A stretch of DNA of 64,000 bases from Phreatobacter cathodiphilus (lineage in GTDB: Bacteria > Pseudomonadota > Alphaproteobacteria > Rhizobiales > Phreatobacteraceae): NCBI RefSeq assembly GCF_003008515.1, contig NZ_CP027668.1, positions 372,001-436,000 of the forward strand, written 5' to 3'. Every line of letters begins with the position of its first letter. Position 1 is the first letter of the stretch. Both the position numbers and the translations under genes were made by a program. Positions 8,101 to 64,000 of this stretch are shown piece after piece. Below the pieces are notes generated by a model that had not been told where the DNA came from, did not search any database, and was given only the letters and a program-made list of their open reading frames with translations.

Positions 8101-9141
8101 ATGACGACGACCATCGCGATGCCGCTCGGCCGCCTGTTCCGCCGCTGGGCGGCGGGCCTCGCCCTCGCCGCCGCCGCCGCGCTGCCCGCGTCCGCCGCCA
8201 CGCTCGACACCGTGAAGCAGCGCGGCAGCCTCGTCTGCGGCGTCAGCCAGGGCCTCGCCGGCTTCTCCGACCGCTCCGGCGGCGCCTGGACCGGGTTCGA
8301 CGTCGACTTCTGCAAGGCGGTGGCGGCCGCGGTCCTGGGCGACCCCGCAAAGGTCACCTATGTCCCGCTCTCCGCCACCGAGCGCTTCGAGGCGCTGGCG
8401 GCGGGCCGCATCGACCTTCTCTCCCGCAATTCCACCTGGACGCTGGAGCGGGAGGCCGGCCTCAAGCTGCTCTTCGCCGGCATCACCTTCCATGACGGCC
8501 AGGGCTTCATGGTGTTGCGGCGCCCGGCCGTCGTCTCGGCGCTGGAGCTCGACGGCGTGCCGGTCTGCGTCCAGGAGGGCACCACCAGCGCCCTCAACGT
8601 CGCCGACTTCTTCCGCGCCAATTCTATGCGCCTGACGCTCCACACGCTGCCGACCTCGGCCGAGGCCCTGGCGGCGCTGGAAGCCGGCCGCTGCGACGTG
8701 CTGACCACCGACCAGTCGGCCCTCTTCGCCGAGCGGCTGAAGCTTTCGAAGCCCGCCGAGGCGGTCATCCTGCCCGACGTCGTCTCGAAGGAGCCGCTGG
8801 GACCCGTGGTGCGTGCCGACGACGTCGCCTGGTTCAACATCGTCAAATGGGTCGCCCACGGCCTCGTCAATGCCGAGGAGCTCGGCATCTCCACCGCCAC
8901 CGCCGACGAGGCGATGCGCTCGGCCAAGCCCAACGTGCGCCGCTTCGTCGGAGCGGAGGGCGATCTCGGCGTCAAGCTCGGGCTCGACAACGCCTTCGCC
9001 ATCCGCGCCGTCCGGGCGGTCGGCAACTACGCGGAAATCTACGAGCGCAATGTCGGCGCCGGGTCGCTGCTGGCCATTCCCCGCGGCATGAACCAGCTCT
9101 GGTCGATGGGCGGCATTCTCTACGCGCCGCCGCTGCGCTGA
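8101..9141 (+). CDS. Amino-acid ABC transporter substrate-binding protein (AapJ-like)
   Basis: 346 residues with signal peptide (residues about 15-35, LALAAAAALPASAA). The mature sequence follows the general L-amino-acid binding protein pattern: TLDTVKQRGSLVCGVSQGLAGF near the start, GFDVDFCKAVAAAVLG, then VTYVPLSATERFEALAAGRIDLL and RNSTWTLERE. The two cysteines after the signal peptide are typical of AapJ relatives. It should bind polar amino acids in the periplasm. No permease or ATPase gene is next to it, so it is an orphan that must borrow a membrane complex. RBS-like GGAGG precedes the start. Convergent with the MCP gene, 2 bp apart. Confidence 0.9.
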   Translation: MTTTIAMPLGRLFRRWAAGLALAAAAALPASAATLDTVKQRGSLVCGVSQGLAGFSDRSGGAWTGFDVDFCKAVAAAVLGDPAKVTYVPLSATERFEALAAGRIDLLSRNSTWTLEREAGLKLLFAGITFHDGQGFMVLRRPAVVSALELDGVPVCVQEGTTSALNVADFFRANSMRLTLHTLPTSAEALAALEAGRCDVLTTDQSALFAERLKLSKPAEAVILPDVVSKEPLGPVVRADDVAWFNIVKWVAHGLVNAEELGISTATADEAMRSAKPNVRRFVGAEGDLGVKLGLDNAFAIRAVRAVGNYAEIYERNVGAGSLLAIPRGMNQLWSMGGILYAPPLR

Positions 9142-9143
9142 GC

Positions 9144-10625
9144 TCAGCGCGCCAGCACCACGGCCGCCTCGCGGGTCGACGTCACCGCCTGGGAGACCTG
9201 GGTCACGGCGGCCGCGATGCCGGCCATGTTCTCGGTGATGAGGGCACTGGCGCGTGCCGCCTGCTGCATGCTCGACGACATGTCCCGCGTCACCACGCTC
9301 TGTTCCTCCACCGAGGCGGCGGTGGCCACGACGCTGTCGCGCATGACGGCAATGGAGTTGCGGATGCCGGTGAGCGCGCCGACGACCTCGTCCGAGATCG
9401 CCTGGACACCGTTGATCTCGGTGCCGATCTGGTCGGTGGCCCGCGCCGCCTGATTGGCGAGGTTCTTCACCTCCTGCGCCACGACGGCGAAACCGCGGCC
9501 GGCCTCGCCCGCCCGCGCCGATTCGATGGTGGCGTTCAGCGCCAGGAGGTTGATCTGGCCGGCGATGGTGTTGATCAGGCCGATGATCCCGCCCATGGCG
9601 ACGGTGGCCTCCGACAGTCGGGTGGCGAAGGAGCCGGCCGCCCGGGTGTGCTCCAGCGCCGTATCTGTCGCGGCCTGGGAGTTCGTCATCATCTGCGAGA
9701 TTTCGGCGATGGAGGACGCGAGTTCCTCCGTCGCCGCGGCCATGCCCTGGACGTTGTCGCGGGTCCGCGTCGCCGCGTCCACCGCGCGCGCCGATTCCTC
9801 GCTCGTGCGCCCCACCGCCTGGTCGATCTCGAGAAAATTGGTGTCGATCATCCGCCGCAGGGTCTCCAGCAGACGGATCTGGGCGGTAATGTCGGTGGCG
9901 AATTTCACCACCTTGTAGGGCCGGCCGGAGGCATCGAGGATCGGATTGTAGGAGGCCTGGATCCAGATCTCCCGGCCGTCCTTGCCGAAGCGGCGATATT
10001 GGGCGGCCTGGAACTCGCCACGCTTCAACGCGGCCCAGAAGGCGGCATAATCGGCGCTGCGACGGGTTGCCGGATCGACGAAAATCTCGTGATGCCGGCC
10101 TTTGATCTCGTCGAGCTCGTAGCCGACCGCGCGCAGGAAGTTGTCGTTGGCGTCCAGGATGACGCCGTCGAGGGTGAAGGATATGACCGCCTGTGACTTC
10201 CGCATGGCGGCCACCTGTCCGGCGCTCTCCGCGTCCTCGGCCTTCTGGCGGGTGATGTCGGTGGCGAACTTGATGATGCCGAAAGGTTTGCCGTCGCTGC
10301 CGATCAGTGGGTTGTAGGACGCTTCGATCCAGATCTCCCGCCCGCCCTTGGCGATGCGCCGGAACTGCGCGGCGTGAAAGGTGCCGGCGCGCAGGCTGTT
10401 CCAGAAGGCACGGTACTCGGCGCTGTCGCGGGTGGCGGCGTCGACGAACATCGCATGGTGCCGTCCCTGGATCTCATCGAGAGTGTAGCCGACGGCGGCA
10501 AGAAAATTGGCGTTGGCGTCGAGGATCGTGCCGTCGAGGTCGAACTCGATCATTGCCTGCACACGGTCGAGCGCCGCCAGTTTTGCCGCCGCCTTGTTCC
10601 GTCTTCTCCCCAGCAAGCCCAGCAT
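9144..10625 (-). CDS. Soluble methyl-accepting chemotaxis protein with tandem PAS domains
   Basis: 493 residues from ATG 10625, no membrane segment. Two PAS/PAC units, about residues 22-133 and 145-255, are near copies of each other ([15 protein letters not shown] and [27 protein letters not shown] and [12 protein letters not shown]), so they arose by internal duplication. The C-terminal half is an MCP signalling domain with the hairpin-tip sequence [20 protein letters not shown] followed by [13 protein letters not shown]. It should signal to CheA/CheW in the cytoplasm, probably sensing redox state or a small ligand through PAS. No other che genes are near. Confidence 0.93.
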
Positions 10626-57631: not shown

Positions 57632-58762
57632 TCAGCCGCCGAATTCGGCCTTCACCTTGGCGGTGTGCTCGCCGAGCGCCGGCACCGGGCCGAACTGCGG
57701 GATGGCCCCGTCGTGGAGGGCGCCCGGGGCGAGCATGCGCTTGCGGCCGGCGGGGGTCTCCACCTCCATATAGCGGTTCTGCGGGTGGACCTTGAGGTCG
57801 TCGAGCGAGGACACCCGGCCATAGGCGACCTTCGCCTTTTCCAGCATCTCCACCACCGCCTCGCGCGGATGGCGGGCGAAGGCGGCGAGGATGATGGCGT
57901 CGAGGTCGGCCCGGTTGGCGACCCGTTTCACATTGGCGTCGAAACGCGGATCGGTTGCCACGGAGGCGTCGGCGAGCACGTTCTCGCAGAGCGAGACCCA
58001 TTCCCGCTCGTTCTGGATGGAAAAGAGGATGGCCTTGCCGTCGGCGCAAGGGTAGGCGCCATAGGGCGCGATGGTCGGGTGGTTGAGGCCCGAACGCGGC
58101 GGATAGATGCCGCCATAGGCGTACTGGAGATAGGGCACGTTCATCCAGTCGGCGAGCGCGTGGTAGAGCGACACGGCGATGTGCCGGCCCTCGCCGGTGA
58201 TGGAGCGGCCGATCAACGCCTGAAGGATGGCCTGGTAGGCGGTCATGCCGGCAGCGATGTCGCAGACCGAGACGCCGACGCGCGCGCGCGAATCGCCTTC
58301 GCCGGTGATCTCCGAGAGGCCCGATTCCGCCTGGACCAGCAGGTCGTAGGCCTTCAGGTGCTGCCAGGGGCCCTCCTCGCCATAGCCGGAGATGGAGCAG
58401 GTGATGAGCCGGGGGTGGCGCCGGCGCAGCGTCTCCATGTCGAAACCGATGCGCTTCAGCGCGCCCGGCGCGAGGTTCTGGATGAAGACGTCGGCCTTCG
58501 CCACCATCGCCGCCAGCACCGCCTGGTCGCCGGCATCCTTCAGGTCGAGCACGACCGATTCCTTGCCCCGGTTGAGCCAGACGAAATAGGCGCTCTCGCC
58601 GTCCACCGCCCGGTCGTAACGGCGGGCGAAGTCGCCCTCGTCGCGCTCGATCTTGATGACGCGGGCGCCGGCATCGGCGAGCCGCGAGGCGGCGTAGGGC
58701 GCGGCCACCGCCTGTTCGACGGAGACGACGAGGAGGCCGGCGAGATCGGTCTGCGAGGACAT
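57632..58762 (-). CDS. CaiB/BaiF family (class III) CoA transferase
   Basis: 376 residues from ATG 58762. Family III CoA transferase: LLVVSVEQAVAAPYAASRLA DAGARVIKIE, FVWLNRGKESVVLDLKD, ISGYGEEGPW, and the catalytic Asp region VSVCDIAAGMTAYQAILQAL. It moves CoA between two acids, such as formate/oxalate, succinate or an aryl/alkyl acid. The substrate is not indicated. GTG 58774 is an alternative start. Located between unrelated genes, but it could serve the 6-hydroxynicotinate-reductase-like cluster encoded upstream on the same strand. Confidence 0.9.
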   Translation of the reverse strand: MSSQTDLAGLLVVSVEQAVAAPYAASRLADAGARVIKIERDEGDFARRYDRAVDGESAYFVWLNRGKESVVLDLKDAGDQAVLAAMVAKADVFIQNLAPGALKRIGFDMETLRRRHPRLITCSISGYGEEGPWQHLKAYDLLVQAESGLSEITGEGDSRARVGVSVCDIAAGMTAYQAILQALIGRSITGEGRHIAVSLYHALADWMNVPYLQYAYGGIYPPRSGLNHPTIAPYGAYPCADGKAILFSIQNEREWVSLCENVLADASVATDPRFDANVKRVANRADLDAIILAAFARHPREAVVEMLEKAKVAYGRVSSLDDLKVHPQNRYMEVETPAGRKRMLAPGALHDGAIPQFGPVPALGEHTAKVKAEFGG

Positions 58763-58850
58763 GGGCAGGCTCACGCGAGAGACGGAAGCCCCTCCATAGA
58801 GACAGCCGGCCCGTCCGGTCCAGAGGCCCTGCCGGGGAGCAGGCTTGAGG

Positions 58851-59201
58851 TCAGGAGGCCAGCGCCCGGTCCACCGCCTCGCGCTCGGTCTCGATCACGG
58901 TGATGTAGGCGAGGAAGGCGCTGTCCGGCATGGTGCGGCCCTGCTCGATGTCCCGCAGGCGCGCGACATTGATCCGGTAGCGCTCGGCGAAGGCCGGCTG
59001 GCTGAGGTTCAGCGACTGCCGCAGCAGCCGGACGCGCCGGCCGGCGACGCCGCGGTCCAGTTCCTCCTCGGTGGAGGGTGGGTTGTCCGGATCGTCGAGC
59101 GCGTTCTGCTCGATCTCCTCCGGCGTCATGGCGTCGAGGCGGGCTGCCTCTTCCGGCGACAGCCGCGGCGGGTTTCGTGGATCAAGTGTGAACCTGGCCA
59201 T
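58851..59201 (-). CDS. HTH antitoxin, partner of BrnT-like toxin
   Basis: 116 residues. The N-terminal 55 residues are acidic and Pro-rich (LSPEEAARLDAMTPEEIEQN), the part expected to wrap the toxin. The C-terminal half is an XRE-type helix-turn-helix (RVRLLRQSLNLSQPAFAERY and RINVARLRDIEQGRTMPDSA), the DNA-binding part. It follows the toxin gene with a 20-bp overlap, the usual toxin-first order of BrnTA modules. The HTH type differs from the ribbon-helix-helix of classical BrnA but is common in relatives. Confidence 0.85.
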   Translation of the reverse strand: MARFTLDPRNPPRLSPEEAARLDAMTPEEIEQNALDDPDNPPSTEEELDRGVAGRRVRLLRQSLNLSQPAFAERYRINVARLRDIEQGRTMPDSAFLAYITVIETEREAVDRALAS

Positions 59202-59469
59202 ATCGCCGCTCCTCTGCCTTGTTTGCTCGTCGCGCCGAAATCACCCAATGCACGTCGCCCCGGAGCGTGTAGACGACGGTCGTCAGCCGACCGTCCAATC
59301 GACCAACGGTTTTGCGACGAACCTCACCGTCTTCTGCCCGCGACACATCAAAGTCGACACGGTCGGGATCCGCAAAGACCGCTACGGCTCGATCGAATCG
59401 CAGCCGATGCTTGGCGACGTTTGCCGCCGCCTTGCCGTCATGCCAGTCGAACTCAAGCGACGACGCCAT
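59182..59469 (-). CDS. brnT: BrnT-family ribonuclease toxin
   Basis: 95 residues. BrnT pattern: LEFDWHDGKAAANVAKHRLR FDRAVAVFADPDRVDFD, then RRKTVGRLDGRLTTVVYTLR, and VHWVISARRANKAEERRY. These contain the expected KxxxNxxKH motif and the C-terminal ISARRAxxxE signature, so the toxin looks intact. It should cleave RNA when free of antitoxin. ATG 59469 is preceded directly by a GTG at 59472; the start falls about where transcription is predicted to begin (see the promoter at 59475), so the mRNA may be leaderless. Confidence 0.9.
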   Translation of the reverse strand: MASSLEFDWHDGKAAANVAKHRLRFDRAVAVFADPDRVDFDVSRAEDGEVRRKTVGRLDGRLTTVVYTLRGDVHWVISARRANKAEERRYGQVHT

Positions 59470-59471
59470 CA

Positions 59472-59503
59472 CATATCATACGGAAATCCCGCATGATATG
59501 CAA
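59472..59503 (-). promoter_or_regulatory. Promoter and palindromic operator of the toxin-antitoxin pair
   Basis: On the minus strand TTGCAT (59503-59498) and TATGAT (59480-59475) are separated by 17 bp. An inverted repeat, CATATCATACGG at 59472-59483 and CCGCATGATATG at 59489-59500 with one mismatch, overlaps the -10 box and part of the -35 box. This is the place where the antitoxin complex should bind to shut off its own operon. Confidence 0.65.
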
Positions 59504-59526: not shown

Positions 59527-60108
59527 TTACCTCTGGCCGTCGCGCTTCGAAATCTGGTCCTGCGTCAGCCCCCCCATGCGCGGATGCGGCCGGCCGCCGG
59601 TCGTCATGGCAAGGGCGAAGAGGATCTCGTCGGGGCGGGGGCTGTCCTGCACCATCAGGGTCACGCCGTCGAAATGCGAGCGCACATAGGCGGCGTTGCG
59701 GTGGTGGATCGGCACGTCGAGGATGGCGCCGAGCGGTCCCACCTTGGTCATGGAGGGCACGATGGCCAGCGCCTCGCCGAGAAGTTCGCGCATGGCATAG
59801 CCACCCGGCACGTGCCACAGCGCGCCGTGCTCCAGTTCACCGGCAGCGCCGACCAGCGAGCCCTTGCCGTAGGCCTCGATGGCGGCGGTGTCGCCGCCGA
59901 GGGCCTCGAGCAGTTTGGTCGCGCATTCGAGGCCGAGGGGCTTGAGCGCCTCCATCGTCGGCTGGATGTCCTCGACATAGCGGCCGGCATAGGGGTTCTT
60001 CAGCACGGCGGCGATCCAGCCCTTGAGGATCGGCCTGTCGAGCTTCGGTCCGCCGTCGTGGCGGACCTCCTCGACGCCGACGACGATCTTCCGGACGTCG
60101 ATGGTCAT
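59527..60108 (-). CDS. DUF1185 (amino acid synthesis family) protein
   Basis: 193 residues. Matches PF06684: VRKIVVGVEEVRHDGGPKLD RP, AAVLKNPYAGRYVEDIQPTM, LVGAAGELEHGALWHVPGGY AMRELLGEA, GPLGAILDVPIHHRNAAYVR SHFDGVTLMVQDSPRPDEIL FALAMTTGGRPHPR. The family name is historical; the activity is unknown. Its start overlaps the UPF0280 stop in an ATGA. Last gene of the hnr-like operon, so it probably acts on a ring or ring-opened intermediate there. Confidence 0.92.
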   Translation of the reverse strand: MTIDVRKIVVGVEEVRHDGGPKLDRPILKGWIAAVLKNPYAGRYVEDIQPTMEALKPLGLECATKLLEALGGDTAAIEAYGKGSLVGAAGELEHGALWHVPGGYAMRELLGEALAIVPSMTKVGPLGAILDVPIHHRNAAYVRSHFDGVTLMVQDSPRPDEILFALAMTTGGRPHPRMGGLTQDQISKRDGQR

Positions 60109-60971
60109 GGTTTCATCTCCCTGAGGCTGCGTGTGTGTCCGAGAATGCGCGCCTCGCCCTGGAGCATCAGCGCCGCATCGAAAATGAGCCCGCGCCGGCG
60201 GAACTGCTCGGCACGCGCGCGGCCGGCTTCGAGCGCCGCGATGATCTGCGGTGTGGCGAGCGGGCCGACGGCGGTGGTCGCCAGCAGGTCGCCGAGGTCG
60301 CTGTCCGGGTCGAGGTGGCGGGCCGGGCTGCGGCCGACCAGCGGGTCGTCGACATCCACCGCATTGGCGATCAGCGTCGCCGCCACGTCGGCCGAGGCGG
60401 CGTCGCGGGCGAGCACCGTCACCGAATCGGCGATGCCGAGCGAAAAGGACCGCCCCTGCGCGCCGGAGGTGGCGATGCCGCCGATCCCGTCCCGGTCCGT
60501 CAGGGTGATGCGTCCGTTGAGCGCGGGGATGGCGCCGCCGGAAAAGTCGGCGGCCACCGCCACCTCCATCGTCTCGCCCTCGGTCAGGTGGACGGCGATG
60601 TCGCCGCCGTCGTTGACGAAGGCGCGGTCGAGGGGTGCCGCCGTCACCATGATCTCCATCAGCTCGTCCGCCACGGCACCGGCCACCGCCGCCATCGGCG
60701 TGACGAAAAGCCCCGCATGGGGCCGGCAGGCCGCGACCATGCGCTTTGCCACCGGCGTCTCCACCTCCGGCCGCTCCGCCATGGGTTTGCGCAGCTCCAC
60801 GAGCTCGCCGGCGAGTTCCGGAAGGATGCCGCCGAATCGGGCGATCACCGCCTCATAGGCGTCGCGCACCGCGCTCGACGCGCCCCAGGCGCGCAGCACC
60901 ACGTCGATCGGTCCGTGCTGCAGATGCAACCTGTCGCCGTCGAGGCGCTGCACGGAGGGCGCGTCCCACAT
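60105..60971 (-). CDS. UPF0280 family protein, ApbE-like fold
   Basis: 288 residues. UPF0280 homologs are related to the FMN transferase ApbE, and three ApbE-like motifs are visible: FVNDGGDIAVHL (ApbE NxGGDI), GGIATSGAQGRSFSLG (ApbE ATSG) and SVTVLARDAASADVAATLIA (ApbE SVTV..AxxADAxAT). The Asp/Thr metal region at the C-terminus of ApbE is only partly recognisable (VDVDDPL). It is encoded between the regulator and the DUF1185 gene with 2-4 bp spacing. I infer it attaches flavin to the hnr-like reductase or another cluster protein. Confidence 0.88.
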   Translation of the reverse strand: MWDAPSVQRLDGDRLHLQHGPIDVVLRAWGASSAVRDAYEAVIARFGGILPELAGELVELRKPMAERPEVETPVAKRMVAACRPHAGLFVTPMAAVAGAVADELMEIMVTAAPLDRAFVNDGGDIAVHLTEGETMEVAVAADFSGGAIPALNGRITLTDRDGIGGIATSGAQGRSFSLGIADSVTVLARDAASADVAATLIANAVDVDDPLVGRSPARHLDPDSDLGDLLATTAVGPLATPQIIAALEAGRARAEQFRRRGLIFDAALMLQGEARILGHTRSLREMKP

Positions 60972-60973
60972 GG

Positions 60974-61429
60974 TCAGCCGATCCGCCCGAGCAGGGCGAG
61001 CAGCGTCTCCGCCTCCTCCGCCGACAGCGGTTCGAGCGTGCGAGCCGAAACCTCGGGACCGCGCGCCTTCATCGCCTCCACCGTCTCGCGGCCGGTGGCC
61101 GTGAGCTCGAGCAGCACGAGCCGGGCGTCGTTGGGGTCGACCGAGGGCGACACGAGGCCGCGCTTGGCGAGACGACCGGCGACGCCGAACATGGTGGCGG
61201 GATCGATGCCCACCATGCGCCCCAGCTGGTTCTGCGAGGTCGGCCCGAGGTCGTGCAGCTTGGCGAGCGCGGCATATTGCACCGGCGTGACGTCCAGCCC
61301 CTCCATCACCTGCTCGAAGATCGCGCTGGCGCGCTGGTGAGCGCGCCGGATCAGGAAGCCGATCTGCTCCTCGAGGACATAAGGCGTCCTCGCCGCCTCG
61401 CCGGCGCGCCGTGATCGCTTCGCCGTCAT
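60974..61429 (-). CDS. MarR-family regulator of the hnr-like cluster
   Basis: 151 residues from ATG 61429. MarR fold: EEQIGFLIRRAHQRASAIFE, VTPVQYAALAKLHDLGPTSQ, recognition helix region LGRMVGIDPATMFGVAGRLA, wing SPSVDPNDARLVLLELTATG. Its start overlaps the reductase stop by 4 bp. It most likely senses the cluster substrate or an intermediate. No copy of the AT-rich palindrome found in the aryl-CoA region occurs here, so this regulator recognises a different site. Confidence 0.9.
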   Translation of the reverse strand: MTAKRSRRAGEAARTPYVLEEQIGFLIRRAHQRASAIFEQVMEGLDVTPVQYAALAKLHDLGPTSQNQLGRMVGIDPATMFGVAGRLAKRGLVSPSVDPNDARLVLLELTATGRETVEAMKARGPEVSARTLEPLSAEEAETLLALLGRIG

Positions 61430-62934
61430 GGGCGCTTCTCCGGGAAGGGCCAGGGATTGCCCTCGACCCAGCCGTCGATGCGCGCCTGCGGGGCGACGTC
61501 GCGCAGGATGTCGTCGATGGAGACGACGTCCTCCATGTGGCCGCCCAGCCGCTCGTAGAGCGCCCGCGGCAGGGTGAACTCGATGGGCGCGACGATGGCC
61601 GGCGTCGGCACGTAGCCGAAGGCGTTCTTCGGCAGTTTGGTCACATCGGCCATGACGGTGATGCCGCCGCCGGGCCAGAGATAGACCGGCGCGCCGCCCA
61701 TGGTGACCTTCGTCTCGCCGGAGGCGACCGAGCGCGTCAGCAGCACCGGGTTCTCGGTGACGCCCGCCCTGAGGCTCCCGCCCGCACCCGCCATGAACAG
61801 CACGGTGCAGAGCGAGGGCTCGCAATTCTCGCCGATGCGGTCGACCACCTTCATCACCGCCTCGGGGATCGGGGCGGGTTGGGGCACGAGGTTCTCGTCC
61901 AGCACGCAATAGAGGAAATGCTCTCCGGTGGTGGAGGTGAGGAGGAGGCGCAGGCCCGGCCAGGCGGTCTCCGGATCGATCTTCTGGATGATCGACAGGG
62001 GGTCTTCGATGTCCGTACCGCCCCAGCCGATACCGGGATTGGCCACCTGGAAGTAGCGGCCCGGCGTCGACTTGCGTCCCCGCACGCGGATGCCGGCCTG
62101 CCGCATGTCCAGCACCTTGCCCGCCTGGTGCTCGGTCAGCACGCCGGTGATGTGGTCGTCGACGACGATGACCTCGTCGACATGGCCGAGCCACTGCTTG
62201 GCGAAGATGCCGACGGTCGCCGAGCCGCAGCCCACCCGCATCCGCTGCTCGGGCTTGCCGTCGACGATCGGTGCCTGGTTCGCCGCCACCACCACCTCGT
62301 GGCCGCCGTCGATCACCATGGTCACCGGTTCGCCGGCGCAGAGCTTGAGCATGGTGTCGCAGGTGACGTTGCCCTCCTTCTTGGAGCCGCCGGTGAGGTG
62401 GCGCACGCCGCCGATGGAGAGCATCTGGCTGCCGTACTCGGCCGTCGTCACGTGGCCGACCTGCTCGCCGCCGACGCGGATGGGCGCGGCCTCCGGGCCG
62501 AGGTGCCGGTCGGTGTCGATCTTCACCTTGACGCCGCAATAGCTGAAGATGCCCTCGGTCACGACGGTCACCGTGTCGACGCCCTCGTGAACCGCCGAGA
62601 CGATGAAGGGCGCCGGCTTGTAGTCGGGATAGGTGGTGCCGGCGCCGATGGCGGTGACGAAGGTGCGGGAGGGATCCAGCACCTGGCCGTCCCAGTCGTT
62701 CTTGCCGAACTCCACCAGCCTGCCGCCCTCCTCTACGGCCCTGGCCAGCAGCACGACCGGGTCGGTGCGTACGAGCTGGCCGTTCTCGTTGGCGTAGCGT
62801 GAGCAGGCGCCGGAGCGCCCCGGGCGGATGCGGCACAGGACCGGGCATGCGTCGCAGCGCAGGATGCCGTCGCCTTCCGCGGCGCCGAACTTCTTCGAGC
62901 GCGCCTCGAGCGAGAGATGGTCAGTGGCGGTCAT
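61426..62934 (-). CDS. 6-hydroxynicotinate reductase-like Fe-S (flavo)protein
   Basis: 502 residues from ATG 62934 with AAGGAGGTCGCC upstream. N-terminal cluster motif C27-x2-C30-x3-C34-x9-C44 (ILRCDACPVLCRIRPGRSGA C) for a 4Fe-4S centre. Then TAIGAGTTYPDYKPAPFIVS, FSYCGVKVKIDTDRHLGPEA, GGVRHLTGGSKKEGNVTCDT, and RGRKSTPGRYFQVANPGIGW. This matches proteins annotated as 6-hydroxynicotinate reductase, which in Eubacterium barkeri reduces 6-hydroxynicotinate with ferredoxin to 1,4,5,6-tetrahydro-6-oxonicotinate. Aerobic proteobacteria carry many uncharacterised relatives, so the substrate here is uncertain. Confidence 0.85.
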   Translation of the reverse strand: MTATDHLSLEARSKKFGAAEGDGILRCDACPVLCRIRPGRSGACSRYANENGQLVRTDPVVLLARAVEEGGRLVEFGKNDWDGQVLDPSRTFVTAIGAGTTYPDYKPAPFIVSAVHEGVDTVTVVTEGIFSYCGVKVKIDTDRHLGPEAAPIRVGGEQVGHVTTAEYGSQMLSIGGVRHLTGGSKKEGNVTCDTMLKLCAGEPVTMVIDGGHEVVVAANQAPIVDGKPEQRMRVGCGSATVGIFAKQWLGHVDEVIVVDDHITGVLTEHQAGKVLDMRQAGIRVRGRKSTPGRYFQVANPGIGWGGTDIEDPLSIIQKIDPETAWPGLRLLLTSTTGEHFLYCVLDENLVPQPAPIPEAVMKVVDRIGENCEPSLCTVLFMAGAGGSLRAGVTENPVLLTRSVASGETKVTMGGAPVYLWPGGGITVMADVTKLPKNAFGYVPTPAIVAPIEFTLPRALYERLGGHMEDVVSIDDILRDVAPQARIDGWVEGNPWPFPEKRP

Positions 62935-62971
62935 GGCGACCTCCTTGAAATTGTGCGCTCTGCAACAGCCA

Positions 62972-63140
62972 AGTGCGTCCTTCGAGGCTCGCTGCGCTCG
63001 CACCTCAGGATGAGGGAGGCTTGAGACCTGTAGCAGCCGTCGCCCCAGGTGCGCGGCGCTCCGACTGGCAGCCTCTGTTGCCATGCACCCGACCTCCTCA
63101 TCCTGAGGTGCGAGCGCAGCGAGCCTCGAAGGACGCACTC
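62972..63140. repeat. Paired inverted repeat, family 1
   Basis: Unit 62972-63015 (AAGTGCGTCCTTCGAGGCTC, GCTCGCACCTCAGGATGAGG) and inverted unit 63093-63140. It lies between the reductase gene and the molybdenum hydroxylase, which are on the same strand, so it may separate two transcription units. Confidence 0.85.
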
Positions 63141-63184
63141 GGGTCGTGCAGGGTGACCGGTCAAGCAATGAGGCAGCCGCACGC

Positions 63185-64000
63185 TCATTCCGCCGCCTCC
63201 CTCTGGCCCTGCATCGCAGCCCACAGCTTGTGCGGCAGGACCGGCACCTCGGTCATGCGCACGCCGACCGCGTGGCGGATGGCGCCGAGGATGGCCGGGG
63301 CGGTCGCGACGAGCGCGGGCTCGCCGACGCCCTTGGCCCCATACGGCCCCTCCGGCTCGGTGTCCTCGACGAGGTGGATGGTGATCTCCGGCATGTCGCC
63401 GGCCGTGGGAACGAGGTAGTCGTGCAGGTTCTCTGTGCGGCCCGGGAGATATTCCTCCATCAGCGCCAGGCCCAGCCCCTGCGCGATGCCGCCGTGGATC
63501 TGGCCCTCGGTCAGTGTCGGGTTGATGGCGCGGCCCACGTCGTGGGCGGCGACGATGCGCGTCACCTTCACCGTGCCGAGCAGGCGGTCCACCTCCACCT
63601 CGGCCACCTGCGCGGCGAAGCCATAGGTGGCGTAGGGGATGCCCTGGCCTTTGGCGTCGAGGGCGGTGGTCGGCGGGTCGTATTCGCCGTCGCCCATGAG
63701 CACGATGCCCGCCGCGTCGGCGGCGAGGCCCGAGAGGTCGATGGTGCGGCTCGCCTCGCCGTCCTCCACGGTCAGCCTGTCACCGACGAGCGCGAGCCGC
63801 GCGGCGGGGCCGGCATTGGCCAGCGCCAGGATCTTCGCGCGGAGATCGGCGCCCGCGAGTTTGGCGGCGTTCCCTGAGACGAAGGTCTGGCGCGAGGCGG
63901 AGGTCTTGCCGGCGTCGAAGGTGCGGTCGGTGTCGCCGATGACGAAGCCGAAGGCCTGGGGCGGCAGTCCCAGCGCATCCGCCGCGATCTGCAGCAGGAC
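63185..64000 (-). CDS. Xanthine dehydrogenase-family molybdopterin subunit, C-terminal part (cut by window end)
   Basis: The frame is open from base 64000 to the stop at 63185 (271 codons). It contains FGFVIGDTDRTFDAGKTSAS RQTFVSGNAAK, KGQGIPYATYGFAAQVAEVE VDRLLGTVKV, RAINPTLTEGQIHGGIAQGL GLALMEEY, and the active-site loop PYGAKGVGEPALVATAPAIL, where the Glu of GVGEP is the catalytic base of Mo hydroxylases. The large subunit hydroxylates an N-heterocycle or aldehyde. Next to an hnr-like gene, a heteroaromatic substrate such as nicotinate is likely. FAD and 2Fe-2S partners should lie beyond the right edge. Confidence 0.92.
   Translation of the reverse strand, partial: VLLQIAADALGLPPQAFGFVIGDTDRTFDAGKTSASRQTFVSGNAAKLAGADLRAKILALANAGPAARLALVGDRLTVEDGEASRTIDLSGLAADAAGIVLMGDGEYDPPTTALDAKGQGIPYATYGFAAQVAEVEVDRLLGTVKVTRIVAAHDVGRAINPTLTEGQIHGGIAQGLGLALMEEYLPGRTENLHDYLVPTAGDMPEITIHLVEDTEPEGPYGAKGVGEPALVATAPAILGAIRHAVGVRMTEVPVLPHKLWAAMQGQREAAE

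Follow-up and report, generated by a model that had tools for sequence, protein, structure and literature searches.

The reductive breakdown of nicotinate by way of 6-hydroxynicotinate is the likely function of an operon that crosses one edge of a 64,000-nucleotide stretch of Phreatobacter cathodiphilus DNA (C1:372001-436000 of a 4.49-Mb single-contig genome; hereafter the window), and in this operon a hydantoinase-like pair, HyuA and HyuB, would open the reduced ring in place of enamidase. A first-pass annotation had described a cluster comprising a Mo hydroxylase, a 6-hydroxynicotinate-reductase-like protein (HNR), a MarR-family regulator and members of the families UPF0280 and DUF1185, and had proposed that an N-heterocycle is hydroxylated and its ring then reduced. 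All five genes are present, tightly packed on the minus strand, and the reading is well supported, since operons of relatives carry genes annotated nicAB or, in many HNR loci, an amidohydrolase that matches the enamidase of Eubacterium barkeri (2VUN) at 1.3e-113. The annotation had also noted that the window lacks an enamidase, which holds for the whole genome (no match at E<=1e-30), and had looked to the sequence on the right for FAD and Fe-S subunits and an enamidase. The FAD subunit is indeed encoded there and the [2Fe-2S] domain is fused to the Mo protein, but in place of an enamidase the extension holds genes for HyuB, HyuA and a Liv-type transporter.

In the proposed route, the ABC transporter would import nicotinate, the FAD subunit and the Fe-S/Mo hydroxylase would, to judge from their family, convert it to 6-hydroxynicotinate, and HNR would, by homology, reduce this to 1,4,5,6-tetrahydro-6-oxonicotinate (THON). 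Comparative evidence suggests that HyuA/HyuB, an ATP-dependent pair of the hydantoinase/5-oxoprolinase type, would then open the lactam ring of THON. UPF0280 would most likely mature HNR, perhaps via a covalent flavin, one type of DUF1185 (type A) might act on the enamine or on 2-formylglutarate once the ring is open, and the carbon would leave via glutarate and glutaryl-CoA, as nicotinate carbon does in Azorhizobium.

Much of this route has precedents. Eubacterium barkeri, an anaerobe, is said to ferment nicotinate by hydroxylation and HNR reduction to THON, followed by enamidase and fermentation enzymes (work attributed to Alhapel, 2006). The first two steps would be common to both systems, whereas ring opening by enamidase, the fermentation enzymes and the anaerobic way of life set E. 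barkeri apart from the window. The first-pass annotation had found such a pathway surprising in an aerobe; however, a conserved nicotinate cluster with HNR has already been reported for Azorhizobium, Bradyrhizobium, Rhodopseudomonas and strain SG-6C, so that the reductive route in aerobes is not new (PMC3511419). That paper adds that SG-6C grows on nicotinate and 6-hydroxynicotinate, and it cites work of 1989-1992 on an Azorhizobium route via THON and glutarate. The published cluster resembles ours in being an HNR cluster of aerobic alphaproteobacteria and is said to cover the first three steps, which we take to include enamidase. In the window genome, by contrast, HyuAB takes the place of that enzyme and the Fe-S and Mo parts of the hydroxylase are fused. 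What we describe is thus a new variant of a known pathway, in which HyuAB would stand for enamidase and UPF0280 is a constant partner of HNR. The open-licence literature, with subscription papers mostly outside its coverage, yielded no report of a hydantoinase in the degradation of 6-hydroxynicotinate (or 6-hydroxynicotinic acid), of UPF0280 by name or of an HNR with covalent flavin.

HNR, a protein of 502 amino acids, is encoded at 61426-62934 on the minus strand, in an open reading frame supported by homologues and by an ATG start that is preceded by the ribosome site AAGGAGGT. The name given to it here relies on the published 42% match between a related SG-6C protein and E. barkeri HNR (PMC3511419). 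The window protein has no Pfam or NCBIfam family match at E<=0.001, and its predicted structure (pLDDT 71) no PDB match at the same threshold; weak matches to YajL and to GCV_T_C (19 of 20 members, best 0.0002, with the window protein below the family cut-off) were set aside. An N-terminal CxxCxxxCx9C motif is a probable [4Fe-4S] site, and eight cysteines, four of them besides the N-terminal four, are invariant in all 116 near-full-length homologues. The E. barkeri enzyme contains Fe-S clusters, and a plausible electron donor is a ferredoxin-NADP reductase, matched close to HNR in 10 of the 126 loci. Of 385 alphaproteobacterial genomes sampled, 68 have a homologue, the window genome included (E<=1e-20), and the HNR of the other 67, across enamidase and HyuAB clusters, is 61-74% identical to that of the window; two Phreatobacter records carry an HNR that is 96% identical. 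In one locus (L070, genome G028, 8782-10256) the HNR gene is split over two frames.

The case for replacement of enamidase comes from the distribution of the two enzymes. Counting as orthologues the enamidases with at least 68% identity to that of locus L072 and the HyuA proteins with at least 54% identity to that of the window, we found enamidase in 30 of the 385 genomes (29 with HNR) and HyuA in 42 (37 with HNR). The 68 HNR genomes accordingly comprise 29 with enamidase only, 37 with HyuA only, none with both and two with neither (Fisher p=3e-17, uncorrected for relatedness), these two being 70% (G226) and 86% (G313) complete. Among the HyuA proteins listed for genomes with enamidase, none exceeds 47% identity to the window HyuA. 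At the level of loci (n=118), where any HyuA or HyuB match at E<=1e-12 was accepted, 45 have HyuAB only, 27 enamidase only, none both and 46 neither, the last in part because flanks are short. A strict recount of 126 loci (HyuA at least 52% or HyuB at least 60%; enamidase at least 60%) gave 49, 23, none and 54, respectively. Three near-copy loci (L096, L117, L123) and L154, which has no HNR, were left out, and L003 was used in clustering of open reading frames only.

Furthermore, the exchange appears to have happened repeatedly. On an HNR tree of 87 loci, with enzyme type assigned by genome where known and otherwise by locus, IQ-TREE places 13 changes of type, at least eight of them forced by supported branches, and FastTree 12, at least seven forced. 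Sister loci of mixed type are found at support 100 (L145/L149 and L042/L051) and at lower support (L057/L065, 97, with L065 on a long branch; L047/L067, 84; L041/L046, 83). At the level of the locus, L145 and L149 share the order HNR, UPF0280, DUF1185, inverted Mo gene and second DUF1185 and end differently, one with an enamidase (72% identical to that of L072) and the other with HyuAB (57% and 69% identical to the window pair). An independent-pairs test (8/8 opposite) was discarded as evidence because omitting the loci with neither enzyme and allowing one state per locus had built in the opposite signs. That HyuAB serves a different step or a side substrate, with THON opened by an unknown enzyme, would accord with the five HyuA genomes that lack HNR, from which it follows that HyuAB has other uses. 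We regard this as very improbable, since the two orthologues are found together in none of the 68 HNR genomes, the two genomes with neither are both incomplete, and in the sisters L145 and L149 one enzyme occupies the place of the other.

The domains of the pair point in the same direction as its distribution. Between them the two proteins carry hydantoinase A and B domains at full length (PF01968, PF05378, PF19278, PF02538), and the PDB entries nearest to HyuA, to which it aligns almost from end to end, are N-methylhydantoinase (7HK5, 470 bits) and 5-oxoprolinase (6YRA, 403 bits), with carboxylases at 305 bits and below. N-methylhydantoinase and 5-oxoprolinase hydrolyse cyclic amides at the expense of ATP; the window pair differs from them in its proposed substrate, THON, and in sitting in HNR operons. 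Database records label this HyuAB subfamily N-methylhydantoinase or acetophenone carboxylase. We infer from these comparisons that HyuAB, as an ATP-dependent hydrolase of the cyclic-amide type, replaces enamidase.

Several observations weigh against the route as proposed. Five genomes with HyuA (at least 54%) and one with enamidase lack HNR, and thus neither family is bound to the nicotinate route. Distant paralogues do coexist: HyuAB genomes G064, G104 and G289 hold an enamidase paralogue (35-42%), and the cluster of L051, a locus whose genome has enamidase, is flanked by distant relatives of HyuA and HyuB (37% and 35%), so that the mutual exclusion is limited to orthologues. For this reason L051, which was treated as enamidase type in the genome counts and trees, counts as HyuAB in the 118-locus and DUF1185 counts, both of which took any HyuA or HyuB match at E<=1e-12. 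In each genome the searches scored only a short list of leading first-look candidates, three for HyuA and four for enamidase. Of the 58 HyuAB-counted loci, 19 have no DUF1185 gene nearby, which argues against an essential DUF1185 step. The role of the window genes in nicotinate degradation is a prediction from homology and from comparison of genomes, and the best PDB score of the window Mo protein is to aldehyde oxidoreductase (388 bits), compared with 254 and 228 bits to the nicotinate dehydrogenase of E. barkeri, an enzyme with its Mo part divided between two chains.

This lack of a clear nicotinate dehydrogenase match, together with N-methylhydantoinase and 5-oxoprolinase as the nearest solved relatives of HyuA, would suit a different substrate: HyuAB-type clusters might serve another N-heterocycle (a pyrimidine, a hydantoin or another pyridine) whose reduced form is an ATP-requiring cyclic amide. 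We consider this improbable, given that HNR proteins from the two kinds of cluster do not separate on the tree, where at least eight swaps are needed, and keep to the same range of identity to the window protein. In addition, genes annotated as or matching nicAB lie in four of 126 HNR loci, two of enamidase type (L052, L157) and two of HyuAB type (L156, L162), so that nicB loci are of HyuAB type in 2/4. In the latter two the nicAB genes adjoin HyuAB-type clusters on Neorhizobium and Paracoccaceae plasmids (Neorhizobium NicB has 1185 amino acids), and the HyuA is 61-62% identical to that of the window. With nicAB in both cluster types and an intermixed HNR tree, nicotinate is favoured as the substrate of both. 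Assignment of the Mo protein as a purine or CO hydroxylase was rejected: it matches several kinds of Mo hydroxylase, yet the genes usually found next to it are those of HNR and UPF0280. The acyl-CoA genes beside a Sulfitobacter cluster were not used, being rare in other loci (AcDH in 3, ECH in 4 and HADH in 2 of 126). Ten of the 126 loci have a Rieske oxygenase in the vicinity of HNR (e.g. L155 16055-17122 and L159 17523-18593), with a VanA_C domain in one example; it could be a demethylase that feeds N-methylnicotinate (trigonelline) into the pathway.

UPF0280, encoded at 60105-60971 on the minus strand (364.7 bits to NCBIfam NF003322, which requires 290), is a strict and dedicated partner of HNR. 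It is present in 68 of the 385 genomes (E<=1e-10), and the lists for the two proteins are identical, with no discordant genome (Fisher p=2e-77, uncorrected for relatedness). The gene order of the window is not due to chance, since UPF0280 accompanies HNR in 113 of 118 non-redundant loci. In three of the five others (L071, L127, L128) the contig ends within about 300 bases of HNR; the remaining two, L125 (10 kb downstream) and L139 (5 kb, with transporter genes), lack UPF0280 despite the room. Among plasmid records, 26 carry HNR; UPF0280 is present on all of these and also on Hydrogenophaga pBPS33-1. There UPF0280 occurs without HNR in a repeated unit (L154 4050-5911 and 14859-16720) with MarR, a Rieske protein and a VanB-type reductase, accompanied by IS1071 transposases.

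Most likely UPF0280 matures HNR. Its AlphaFold2 model (pLDDT 94.8) has 29 Foldseek matches at E<=0.001, namely two chains of 2O34, a Desulfovibrio DUF375 protein (DVU1097), with TM-scores of about 0.57-0.72, and 27 chains of ApbE, Ftp and FmnB, with scores of about 0.32-0.53; the modelled fold is that of the ApbE flavin transferases. The motifs GGD, GxSxSLG and AD..AT are shared, along with the fold, with DVU1097 and methanogen COG2122; we take DVU1097 to belong to COG2122, presumably the same family as UPF0280. Since E. barkeri HNR reportedly contains a covalently bound flavin (again work ascribed to Alhapel, 2006), flavin attachment suggests itself. Two negative results weigh against this: HxIDP, the ApbE motif with the catalytic histidine, is found in 0/109 UPF0280 proteins, and D..[ST]GA[ST], the acceptor motif of ApbE client proteins, in 0/118 HNR proteins (the shorter [ST]GA[ST] in 2/118). 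An H257G mutant structure is among the Foldseek matches. Because both motifs are missing, covalent attachment of flavin to HNR by UPF0280 is put forward only as a hypothesis, to which we give slightly less than an even chance.

The first-pass annotation had called UPF0280 and DUF1185 families with no known activity. For UPF0280 this has to be qualified, as Desulfovibrio vulgaris requires the COG2122 protein as well as DUF39 to make homocysteine (fitness correlation 0.98; PMC5764234). According to that paper, COG2122 homology to ApbE seems not to reach the flavin region, and others have suggested a persulfide role for the COG2122/DUF39 system (PMC5764234). It is thus quite possible that UPF0280 matures HNR by some means other than a flavin, for instance through a part in sulfur or Fe-S cluster handling, as suggested for COG2122/DUF39; the two missing motifs and the four invariant HNR cysteines beyond the N-terminal four are in keeping with this. 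The ApbE fold of UPF0280 and the reported covalent flavin of E. barkeri HNR argue the other way. The published partner of COG2122 is DUF39 (PF01837), whereas that of the window UPF0280 is HNR, and a search of 72 Pseudomonadota genomes, that of the window included, gave no DUF39 match. A kinship of HNR and DUF39, as two partners of one family, was considered and dropped, PF01837 being absent from the Pfam matches of all HNR members at E<=10.

DUF1185 (DUF1185/AA_synth) is encoded at 59527-60108 on the minus strand (PF06684, 4.1e-69, domain 1-175 of 175), with PDB matches to 3BYQ (1e-55) and 2QTP (6.6e-48). A tree of 120 copies falls into two fully supported clades, types A and B. Type B travels with enamidase, being present in 33 of 37 enamidase loci and in 6 of 58 HyuAB loci, one of the six being L051 with its enamidase genome. 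Type A, to which the window copy belongs, occurs in 22 of these enamidase loci and in 39 of the HyuAB loci. Because the trigonelline and nicotinate routes both pass through a 2-formyl acid, we tentatively suggest, as a rather doubtful guess, that type A handles the enamine or 2-formylglutarate after ring opening, for example by decarboxylating 2-formylglutarate. Crystal structures of the family show a conserved histidine cluster (PMC2954203). TgnF of trigonelline degradation is described as a homologue of a DUF1185 protein and as stimulating oxidation of succinate semialdehyde, and in the same paper no such stimulation could be demonstrated for its own DUF1185 protein (PMC7913881). Separately, more distant enamidase paralogues (40-44%) adjoin a DUF1185 gene in G060, G202, G306, G300, G210, G378 and G381, as a second pair.

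The remaining genes complete the operon. The C-terminal part of the Mo hydroxylase lies at 63185-64000 on the minus strand (PF20256, 5.5e-54, and PDB matches); the whole gene, for a fused [2Fe-2S]/molybdopterin protein of 918 amino acids, extends past the window edge to C1:437941. It is followed, on the operon strand and beyond the window, by genes for the FAD subunit (C1:437941-438822), HyuB (C1:438804-440507; PF02538, 1.4e-162) and HyuA (C1:440689-442728; PF01968, 2.7e-89) and, past HyuA, for the Liv (branched-chain amino-acid type) ABC transporter (open reading frames of L002 and Pfam). The MarR gene (60974-61429, minus strand; PF01047, 2.5e-12) overlaps the HNR stop by four bases and is separated by two from that of UPF0280, which in turn overlaps DUF1185 by four. 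MarR, matched in 63 of 126 HNR loci, is probably the regulator of the operon. Only the Mo gene and HNR stand further apart. The gap there, of about 250 bases, consists mostly of a dispersed repeat with 140 genome matches on both strands; it includes a palindrome at 62960-63151 with 56-nt arms, 93% complementary and 80 nt apart. A family III CoA-transferase gene (57632-58774, minus strand; PF02515, 4e-104), of which some match is found in 22 of 126 HNR loci, has succinate-glutarate CoA-transferase as its best NCBIfam model (232.8 bits against 750 required); it is a possible later step, from glutarate to glutaryl-CoA, and its membership of the operon is unsure. The interval between it and DUF1185 (58851-59472) holds a BrnT-type toxin gene (PF04365, 6.2e-21) and then a helix-turn-helix protein, a fold different from that of BrnA, the usual BrnT antitoxin.

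Taken further, and somewhat speculatively, UPF0280/COG2122 could be a second ApbE-derived class of enzyme, one that attaches a cofactor covalently to a new acceptor residue (flavin in the case of HNR, a comparable group in the DUF39 system), with HyuAB a repeatedly recruited, ATP-driven enamidase substitute that makes THON opening irreversible. The finding suggests a function for HyuAB proteins of a subfamily now labelled otherwise, and offers an apparent case of one enzyme swapped many times for an unrelated one. It would also make a testable maturation factor for HNR out of UPF0280, whose chemistry is so far unassigned and whose presence and absence match those of HNR perfectly in the genomes sampled. 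With 68 of these 385 alphaproteobacterial genomes, the route is a common one, and through 6-chloronicotinate it touches the breakdown of neonicotinoids (PMC3511419).

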